From positions 1 through 60,247 of IMG/VR virus record IMGVR_UViG_3300033149_001001: a stretch of 60,247 nucleotides of DNA. The stretch is one strand, 5' to 3'. Under the pieces are notes generated by a model, which ran no database searches, was not told the origin of the DNA, and was given only the letters and a program-made list of their open reading frames with translations. Positions 2,398 to 10,088 of this stretch are shown here, piece after piece. Origin of the DNA: a virus. A program made the translations under genes and the position numbers. Each line of letters starts with the position of its first letter. Positions within the stretch are counted from its first letter, which is position 1.

Positions 2398-3175
2398 GCT
2401 AACTGAGGTCGATGCCAATCTTCGCGTGTTCTACGAGGAAGACACGGAGAACGGTGGGTATAAGCTCAAGAGTGATGAAATCACGGCTACAGCGATCTCT
2501 GTGATTTCTGGGCTCAATGGAGCTTTGGGGGCGGCCCGGAGTGAAGCTGAGGCTGCAAAACGAAACGGAACCGTTGATTTGTCCGTGTTGGCTGACTACG
2601 GCACTGACCCTCAAAGCATTGCTGATGCAGTCAATGCCAAGATTGAAGAGCTTTCCAGTGCGGCAACTTCGAGCCAGAAAGACATTGAGGCTCGGATCAG
2701 CAGGATCAAAAAAGAACATGCTGAGGCGTTGGCTGAGGCCACTTCCGCCAAGGATCAGGAGATTATGCGGCAGCAGCAGGCCCTTCACAATTATATGCTG
2801 GACACCGCCGTCATGAGTGCCGCGACGAGTTGGACTGGTCTGAACGCTAAACTGGTCGCCCCGTTTGCTCGTGGGCAAATGAAGGTTGCTGAAATTGACG
2901 GGCAGCCTCGTGTTGTTGTGGTAGACAGCGATGGGCAACCTCGTTATTCCAAAAATCCGGACCGGGCGGGTGAAATGATGCAGGCCGATGAATTGCTCAA
3001 AGAGATGTCAGAGCAGCCGGATTACCGTCAGCTTTTCCCGTCCCAGCAGGCTTCCACGGGTGGCGGTGCTGAGCAGACTCGTACGCCGGTAGGTGTTCGC
3101 ACCGGCGTCAAGAAGGAAAACATGACTTCGGCGGAGAAGATCAATGCGGGCCTTGCGGCAAGACGTCGTAGATAA
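2372..3175 (+). CDS. Putative capsid scaffold protein
   Basis: A 267-residue, highly charged protein between portal and major capsid genes. Residues about 75-150 are Glu/Lys/Ala-rich with heptad character (coiled coil), and the C-terminus is basic (GLAARRRR), both common in scaffolding proteins that bind coat protein. No protease motif is visible. The start ATG at 2372 lies inside the portal gene and has GAAAGGA upstream. Role is inferred from position and composition; sequence families of scaffolds are too diverse to name one. Confidence 0.7.
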   Translation: MKILKKVNELTEVDANLRVFYEEDTENGGYKLKSDEITATAISVISGLNGALGAARSEAEAAKRNGTVDLSVLADYGTDPQSIADAVNAKIEELSSAATSSQKDIEARISRIKKEHAEALAEATSAKDQEIMRQQQALHNYMLDTAVMSAATSWTGLNAKLVAPFARGQMKVAEIDGQPRVVVVDSDGQPRYSKNPDRAGEMMQADELLKEMSEQPDYRQLFPSQQASTGGGAEQTRTPVGVRTGVKKENMTSAEKINAGLAARRRR

Positions 3176-3187
3176 AGGCCCTAAATC

Positions 3188-3242
3188 GGACCCGAAAGTT
3201 TTGGATTTTTTACTTGACTTTCGGGTCCGATAATGTTATGAT
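3188..3242 (+). promoter_or_regulatory. Promoter with overlapping inverted repeat before the capsid gene
   Basis: A -35 TTGACT (3214-3219) is separated by 17 bp from a -10 TATGAT (3237-3242). A 13-bp inverted repeat, CGGACCCGAAAGT at 3188-3200 with its complement at 3216-3228, overlaps the -35 and spacer. It could be an operator or a weak terminator/attenuator. A leader of about 100 nt with AAGGAG follows before the capsid ATG. Confidence 0.7.
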
Positions 3243-3351
3243 GTAAATTGTAGCACTTGGCATGAGGGCGATCCTTGGCCGAAACCGCGATGGTTTTCAA
3301 TGTGCTTTCCCGTTGAAGATTGAGTTTTGCGAATGCTAAGGAGATCAAAAA

Positions 3352-8855: not shown

Positions 8856-9290
8856 ATGAGTAATCCATTGCGTAAAATGTTTGAGACTGACAAAAACGTC
8901 GAAAAGGAAGGCGTGATTGTTGAGTATGCCCCAGGCGTTGAGATCAGAATTGCCCGTGCGGGAGGAGGCAATAAGCGGTTCGCGAAGGTATTGTCCCGAC
9001 TGGCGAGGCCGTACCGCCGAGCAATCCAGACTGAAACCATCGACCCCGAAATCCTTTTGGGCATTTTTCGGAAAGCGTATGCCAAAACCATCATCTTGGA
9101 CTGGACTGGTCTTACGAAAGACCTTCTCACGCACGATGATGCTGACGCAGAAACTTCTCTGGAATTCAACGCGGAGAATGCTCTGAGCTTACTTGAGGAG
9201 CAGCCGAATTTGTTTGCCGACATTCAACAGGCTTCGGACAACATCGCTCTTTACCGTCAGGATATCCTGGAAGCTGATTCGGGAAACTGA
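8856..9290 (+). CDS. Tail assembly chaperone, G-like
   Basis: A 144-residue protein between the tail tube and tape measure genes, the place of lambda G. It is helical and acidic at the C-terminus (LFADIQQASDNIALYRQDILE). Its last codons carry the slippery heptamer GGGAAAC immediately before the UGA stop, so part of translation should shift -1 into the T-like frame. The chaperone pair coats the tape measure protein during tail assembly in lambda. Confidence 0.85.
   Translation: MSNPLRKMFETDKNVEKEGVIVEYAPGVEIRIARAGGGNKRFAKVLSRLARPYRRAIQTETIDPEILLGIFRKAYAKTIILDWTGLTKDLLTHDDADAETSLEFNAENALSLLEEQPNLFADIQQASDNIALYRQDILEADSGN
9281..9287 (+). promoter_or_regulatory. Programmed -1 frameshift site GGGAAAC
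   Basis: The heptamer fits X XXY YYZ in the zero frame (G GGA AAC), followed at once by TGA. The -1 frame is open from 9278 onward and has no good start until an internal ATG at 9317. This is nearly the lambda G/GT signal (GGGAAAG). Confidence 0.85.
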
Positions 9291-9622
9291 TTGACTGCCT
9301 GCTCTATTACCTGGATATGGGGCAGGTAGAACAGCGAATGATCCGGGAATGCTATGCACGGCGAAAACCGCTACCTGAACGTATACAGAATGCTCCAGAC
9401 CTATTCGTGGGCCTGGAGCTATACTTTGACGCTTTCGTGGAGTTGAATACCTGTAGAAGCACTGGCTGGGGTCCTGGGCCTATACCATCTTGGTGCATAG
9501 ACGAATTCTGTGTAAGAAACGGAATATGCGGAGAAGAGGCCGAAGATTTTCATTATCTTCTTCGCCAAATGGACGGAGCATTTTTGAAGCATATGGCGAG
9601 TAAATCTAAGGAATCTTCTTGA
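9287..9622 (+). CDS. T-like extension of tail assembly chaperone, made by frameshift
   Basis: The -1 frame continues LIDCLLYYLDMGQVEQRM and runs 111 residues to 9622, giving a GT-like fusion of about 255 residues. There is no convincing ribosome binding site for a separate start at 9317. Several Cys and aromatic residues occur in 'STGWGPGPIPSWCIDEFC'. In lambda the T domain recruits tail tube protein to the tape measure complex; the same role is inferred here. Confidence 0.8.
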   Translation: MIDCLLYYLDMGQVEQRMIRECYARRKPLPERIQNAPDLFVGLELYFDAFVELNTCRSTGWGPGPIPSWCIDEFCVRNGICGEEAEDFHYLLRQMDGAFLKHMASKSKESS

Positions 9623-9653: not shown

Positions 9654-10088
9654 ATGGCACAAAAGTTTTCCAGCCGAATGAATGCCATTGGCGATGTGCT
9701 GATGGCAAATGTCTCAAAGACAATTCGTAAGGCGGCTCAAGCGGCAACAAATGAGGTTGTGCTGAGAACACCTGTGCTCACCGGACGGGCTCGCGTGAAT
9801 TGGCGGGTTACGTTCGGGGCTCCGTCAACCAATAAGATTGAGCCTCCAGATACGAAAGATCGCGAGGTAAACAGGCAGATCGCCTCTACTCAGGCTTTGA
9901 TTAACGCTTCTAACAAAATAAAGGTATGGAAGGTCGGTAAGGGCAACATTTTCATAGCCAATCCGATCCCGTACATCGTGGACCTTGACAGAGGTACACT
10001 CTCTCAACAGGCTCGGAGTGGCATGACGACGTTCGGCGTGGCTGCTGCACGAAGCATTCTGAGAAAAGGAAGGTTGTTGCGTGGCTGA
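9654..10088 (+). CDS. HK97 gp10-like tail/neck protein
   Basis: A 144-residue basic protein. 'NEVVLRTPVLTGRARVNWRV' is the signature of the HK97 gp10 family ('TPVdTGrLraSW'), connector proteins between head and tail. The more usual place is beside the tail terminator; here it follows the tail chaperones. It overlaps the tape measure start by 8 bases. Confidence 0.75.
   Translation: MAQKFSSRMNAIGDVLMANVSKTIRKAAQAATNEVVLRTPVLTGRARVNWRVTFGAPSTNKIEPPDTKDREVNRQIASTQALINASNKIKVWKVGKGNIFIANPIPYIVDLDRGTLSQQARSGMTTFGVAAARSILRKGRLLRG

Follow-up and report, generated by a model that had tools for sequence, protein, structure and literature searches.

A very probable programmed -1 ribosomal frameshift in the tail assembly chaperone gene of a YuA-like siphophage

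The tail assembly chaperone gene of a YuA-like siphophage very probably contains a programmed -1 ribosomal frameshift, in which slippage on the heptamer GGGAAAC would join two overlapping reading frames into a longer product. The window, i.e. the whole stretch of viral DNA analysed here, is 60,247 nucleotides long and corresponds to IMG/VR record IMGVR_UViG_3300033149_001001. The presence of both frames, their matches to protein families, the conservation of the heptamer, the absence of an independent start for the second frame and the selection acting on a downstream hairpin are established here through comparative analysis of sequences. The fusion product, its ratio to the short form and its role are those which we infer from lambda, as far as this system is described in the available part of one source (PMC5009743).

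Reading frames and tail-gene context

The features of the region are collected in Table 1. Direct reading of the sequence places the heptamer in the phase set by the ATG at 8856, as G_GGA_AAC, with the zero-frame UGA directly 3' of it, an arrangement which the preliminary description had reported and which is borne out. That description also had the -1 frame opening three bases upstream of the heptamer, which is exact (the frame is open from 9278), and gave lengths of 144 residues for the short form and about 255 for the fusion, both of which are confirmed. Translation from the ATG yields a short product with the C-terminus ...DSGN, and the fusion would be composed of 142 codons, GGA, AAC and a further 111 codons read in the -1 frame (9287-9619), for a total of 255 aa.

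By itself, GGGAAAC is a common string, present 3 times in the window against 9.2 expected in shuffles, and in-frame X_XXY_YYZ heptamers are present at 69 of the 22,721 codon positions in plus-strand ORFs of at least 60 aa. Only one of the 130 ORFs in this set carries such a heptamer directly 5' of its own stop, namely the first frame of the chaperone gene.

Table 1. Coordinates of the tail-gene region and of the putative frameshift site in the window
Feature	Positions	Strand	Basis
Tail tube protein, 512 aa	7240..8778	+	PF18906 Phage_tube_2 (E 6e-23), phrog_290
Frame 1, short tail assembly chaperone (gpG-like), 144 aa	8856..9290	+	phrog_313 and phrog_8233 matches
Weak Shine-Dalgarno-like GGAAG, 7 nt 5' of the heptamer	9269..9273	+	weak in the window
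Last -1 frame stop, TGA	9275..9277	+	direct reading
Slippery heptamer G_GGA_AAC	9281..9287	+	direct reading; homologous heptamer in 200/201 junctions
Frame 2 (-1), T-like extension, 111 aa after the predicted slip	9281..9622	+	phrog_3817, phrog_8233, PF23812
Zero-frame UGA	9288..9290	+	direct reading; adjacent stop in 157/201 junctions
Predicted hairpin, 5' arm, beginning 7 nt past the heptamer	9295..9307	+	folding of a 63-nt stretch
Predicted hairpin, loop, 9 nt	9308-9316	+	folding
Predicted hairpin, 3' arm, containing the first in-frame ATG of frame 2 (9317)	9317..9329	+	folding
Tail completion or Neck1 protein	9654..10088	+	phrog_169 (E 1.6e-25)
Tape measure protein, 809 aa	10081..12510	+	PF20155 TMP_3 (E 1.3e-50), PF09718 Tape_meas_lam_C, phrog_3336

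Family matches assign both frames to the same function. The first frame is matched by phrog_313 (Tail assembly chaperone, E 9e-26), and the second by phrog_3817 (tail chaperonin, E 1.4e-29) and by PF23812 (Phage_TAC_18, E 1.2e-13, 51.4 bits against a cut-off of 27). Moreover, one profile, phrog_8233, spans the two, with positions 9-138 of its 271 aligned to the first frame and positions 139-252 to the second. The order tail tube, first chaperone frame, second chaperone frame, Neck1 and tape measure is kept in annotated relatives, CcrSC being without a separate Neck1 gene at this place. Judged on matches and gene order, the two overlapping frames between tube and tape measure genes are the tail-assembly-chaperone slot. 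The tail genes of the window resemble those of YuA, M6, PaMx25, Septimatrevirus and Lokivirus phages, and on sequence comparison the source phage is a YuA-like siphophage, with relatives in Mesyanzhinovviridae, Septimatrevirus, Lokivirus and others. No tRNA genes were found in the window.

Neighbouring genes have features of their own. The tail tube protein is matched over residues 14-481 by a Pfam profile of 266 positions, which suggests an insert of about 200 aa, and between 12510 and 15288 two neighbouring ORFs of 584 and 340 aa both match the C-terminal half of phrog_687, a possible duplication.

Regarding the fold of the chaperone, sequence searches against solved structures returned nothing above chance for the first-frame profile, while the second-frame profile matched only designed four-helix proteins (4D2, E 0.003-0.009), with no stretch passing alone. 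The predicted structures of the two parts have mean pLDDT values of 84.9 and 83.3, and Foldseek gave no match at E 0.001 or better for either of them (best VIA Z 2.4); known tail assembly chaperone folds are absent from the matches listed in the fold search, a result which does not exclude such folds.

The slippery site and its putative stimulators across relatives

The set of relatives comprised 26 annotated phage loci, chosen for diversity from about 281-285 matching records, together with 8 further loci obtained via single-protein queries, 8 genome loci with alignments, and IMG/VR relatives (the best 80 of 316, 80 of 105 and 80 of 198 matches). Removal of identical junctions resulted in 201 distinct junctions, window included; the counts exclude the entries L035, which is the window itself, and L008, which has no second frame. 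With an HMM built on the second frame, whose first residue falls on the heptamer, 108 junctions have AAAAAAC, 90 GGGAAAC, one GGGAAAT, one GGGAAAG and one no heptamer. In 200 of the 201, therefore, an X_XXY_YYZ motif stands precisely at the homologous codon, which rules out a chance occurrence. The lone exception, L007, is a mapping artefact, as direct reading finds GGGAAAC TGA at its position 3004. Conservation of the heptamer in relatives, to which the preliminary description had looked for confirmation, is thus found throughout, and a search of the 201 junctions for the opposite case which it had named, i.e. both frames kept without the heptamer and with an independent ribosome site for the second, returned none. 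L007 is in itself a peculiar locus, a close relative in which the second frame (3004-3275) is broken by an internal stretch that is missing, out of frame, through either assembly error or real loss.

The heptamer was also present in 127 of 127 junctions recovered by searches in which no pattern touched the motif. As an adversarial test, two Vibrio phages and Caulobacter CcrSC were considered, which had been found by the first-frame search and whose second frame was absent among the matches listed from second-frame searches; GGGAAAC or AAAAAAC stands directly before the stop in 3 of 3. These loci (L275, L276 and L277, belonging to Vibrio Mardecavirus and Caulobacter CcrSC) also have the -1 frame. 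The final C of the heptamer is explained by the Leu (CUN) kept in the -1 frame.

Downstream of the heptamer, a hairpin which did not figure in the preliminary description probably aids the slip. In the window it is predicted with a 13-bp stem, at -19.9 kcal/mol over the 63-nt stretch and with a z of -2.47 in comparison to dinucleotide shuffles. Across 124 representatives, 60-nt windows just past the heptamer have a mean z of -2.10 against synonymous shuffles, a signal which is about 0 from +152 on, and hairpins anchored 5-10 nt past the heptamer have a mean z of -2.21, with 60 of 125 representatives beating all 25 shuffles. Near-perfect helices of at least 10 pairs were registered in 62 of 125 (18.3 expected) and of at least 12 pairs in 29 of 125 (3.0 expected), while one control position of this helix test, at +60, has a mild excess too (6.60 against 5.73 pairs). 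The 5' arm is fixed, with a spacing of 7-8 nt across relatives, within the 5-8 nt of a dnaX-like cassette; the 3' arm is placed differently in different lineages, its end falling at 35-38, 41-43 or 49-53 nt in 95 of 125 representatives. In the first of these classes, with a 5-nt loop (47 of 125 representatives, chosen by fold), two-sided changes were observed in 8 of 12 pairs, and a control slid by +2 equals this in two-sided cells (29) and shows 9 pairs of this kind, even though pairing is kept in only 45.6% of its cells, compared with 85.1%. Since this set was selected by fold and the control is equally two-sided, the claim for the hairpin rests on the unselected synonymous-shuffle tests.

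The hairpin is not seen in every relative; for example, it is lacking from L022 and weak in L016, both carrying the heptamer, and these two loci may have another stimulator or none. Two further structural candidates were rejected. A pseudoknot would pair the loop sequence CCUGGAU with a downstream AUCCGGG at 7 of 7 positions in the window and L054, but the other 15 of the 17 clade members reach 3-6 of 7. The Rfam family RF01097 (retroviral Gag/pro frameshift site) aligns to 9281-9324 with 24.4 bits against a gathering threshold of 43 (E 0.076), which reflects a resemblance of layout, GGGAAAC and hairpin, and not kinship.

The zero-frame stop follows the heptamer directly in 157 of the 201 junctions, and elsewhere lies a further 1 (18 junctions), 4 (4), 8 (2), 10 (2) or 13 codons (17) on, the one remaining distance, 58, belonging to the mis-mapped L007. 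Among 124 representatives the stop is adjacent in 104, whereas synonymous resampling that preserves the -1 frame protein and the codon usage predicts 49.6. Because of this excess its placement is taken to be selected, whether for pausing the ribosome or for ending the short form, without being obligatory. The codon itself switches among TAA, TGA and TAG in place (fewest changes 36, on a quick tree).

The preliminary description had attributed the pause, as probable, to the adjacent stop, and in the strongest form of this idea a "shifty stop" would be the main driver of the slip, the hairpin being incidental. Both the enrichment of adjacent stops and their persistence in place under changing identity are in favour of it. 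However, a fixed end residue of the short product explains the stop placement equally well, the adjacent stop is missing from 43 of the 200 correctly mapped junctions, including the YuA group where it lies 13 codons on, and the hairpin exceeds synonymous shuffles. A slip driven mainly by the stop is hence considered unlikely; the earlier idea of a pause is supported only in part, through the enrichment itself, and these comparisons point to the hairpin as a better-supported stimulator than a pause at the adjacent stop.

A Shine-Dalgarno-like stretch upstream of the heptamer is suggestive only as a further stimulator. In 125 representatives, pairing with the anti-Shine-Dalgarno about 7 nt upstream is roughly 1.3 kcal/mol better than in synonymous shuffles (observed -5.3, null -4.0 kcal/mol), so that the encoded amino acids account for most of the pairing. 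The codon for Glu at -11 is GAG in 69 of 112 cases compared with 455 of 1134 elsewhere. The window has only GGAAG, while the stronger GGAGG is found in many relatives. In dnaX the corresponding spacing is 10 nt, against 7 nt in the window.

Separate translation and transcriptional slippage

The two frames could in principle be separately translated overlapping genes, the second being started from the ATG at 9317 or by termination-reinitiation after the UGA at 9288. This ATG is indeed in frame, and an own start is given to the second frame in 18 of the 26 phage records fetched. Yet conservation of the second frame begins at the heptamer, upstream of 9317, as its residues K2 and L3 are invariant in 31 aligned relatives ahead of any usable start, and the ATG at 9317 falls inside the hairpin. 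Furthermore, the first possible start codon scatters from codon 3 to beyond codon 70, an in-frame start with a 4-nt Shine-Dalgarno core within the first 30 codons is present in just 6 of 126 cluster representatives, and no conserved start was found among these 126, making separate translation highly improbable. A joined CDS is annotated in 3 of the 26 fetched records (RcRudolph, Sonora and AH03). In the records of YuA (L011) and Acinetobacter phage HD01 (L032) the second chaperone frame is unannotated.

The first three bases of the heptamer are all-or-none, with AAA in 108 junctions, GGG in 92 and a mixture in 0 (200 of 200), and in 16 disjoint pairs of relatives with 70-90% identity the two members have opposite states. 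Parsimony requires at least 36 switches, a number which may be inflated by the quick tree of about 110 residues on which it was obtained. Such switching is predicted by tandem tRNA slippage and not by polymerase slippage on a homopolymer. Transcriptional slippage, by which RNA polymerase would slip on the A run and generate mixed mRNA, has accordingly a negligible probability: the six-A run of the AAAAAAC relatives (108 of 201) would suit it, but the GGGAAAC junctions (90 of 201, including the window) have no run longer than three, and GGG and AAA interchange freely, which preserves tRNA re-pairing but not the homopolymer.

Proposed mechanism and comparison with known systems

Under programmed -1 frameshifting, most ribosomes would decode G_GGA_AAC and terminate at the codon that follows, releasing the 144-aa gpG-like chaperone, while in a minority the two tRNAs would re-pair on GGG AAA, presumably by tandem slippage, and translation would continue in the -1 frame to the 255-aa gpGT-like fusion. 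The rate of slippage would be raised by the hairpin as main stimulator, by the adjacent stop as a possible second one, and possibly by the Shine-Dalgarno-like stretch. As in lambda, the G part would coat the tape measure protein, with the T part recruiting the tail tube protein, and the ratio between short form and fusion would be set by the slip rate. Several points weigh against the frameshift reading. In E. coli, AAC-type heptamers are weaker than AAG-type ones according to the available part of the source (PMC5009743), some relatives show no hairpin, the Shine-Dalgarno-like signal is weak in the window and owed mostly to the amino acids, and the predicted structures of the two parts gave no convincing relative among solved ones.

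A broader proposal, plausible though somewhat short of probable, is that one large lineage, ranging from siphophages of about 40 kb to a 317-kb Caulobacter phage, may rely nearly always on A-site AAC heptamers, weak as they are in E. coli, since Lys-Leu has to be preserved in the -1 frame. The weak slip would be offset by a selected hairpin, constant in its spacing but with a 3' arm relocated several times inside the coding sequence, by the adjacent stop and possibly by the Shine-Dalgarno-like stretch, hairpin and stop being exchangeable means of setting one slip rate.

The layout of heptamer and stop is already published, in the available parts of the reports, for KL1 (PMC3483164) and Loki (PMC5313236), and the putative site of the window adds a member. 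No family-wide analysis of the chaperone frameshift site was found among the papers listed by literature searches, which mainly covered journals outside subscription. The added value lies in the family-wide evidence for hairpin and stop, and in the confirmation of the second frame, omitted or mis-started in many records, as the C-terminal part of the fusion. Moreover, about 200 sites, differing by GGG/AAA swaps and by relocated hairpin arms and stops, represent a natural series with which the effect of each stimulator could be determined in bacteria.

The slip site of lambda, with the heptamer GGGAAAG, is not known to have an adjacent stop and in both respects differs from that of the window; the likeness is one of layout. 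The "lambda-type" frameshift at the G/GT position of the preliminary description is strongly supported by family matches and heptamer conservation, with the qualification that the heptamer is lambda-like in its layout and not in its sequence. What is shared with lambda G/GT, as covered in the available text (PMC5009743), is the position before the tape measure gene, the -1 slip on X_XXY_YYZ and the short chaperone with a rarer fusion. The same text names GGGAAAG as highly shift-prone in E. coli and describes the dnaX cassette, which has in common with the window a slippery heptamer and a downstream stem-loop, and perhaps a Shine-Dalgarno-like stretch, but employs A_AAA_AAG at about 50% efficiency in an unrelated gene (PMC5009743).

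In gp12/gp13 of Acinetobacter phage Loki and in IME_AB3 (locus L021 of our set), whose proteins are homologous to those of the window, an XXXYYYC heptamer likewise adjoins the stop of the short form, but it is AAAAAAC instead of GGGAAAC, and the available part of the report mentions no stem-loop (PMC5313236). For Burkholderia phage KL1, the accessible portion of the report gives a prediction from one phage, and neither heptamer nor stop nor hairpin is tested there by comparison (PMC3483164). Its gp18/gp19 share with the window GGGAAAC directly 5' of TGA, short and long products (142 and 264 aa), one tail gene between the pair and the tape measure gene, and a stem-loop, placed by mfold in the next 35 bases (PMC3483164).
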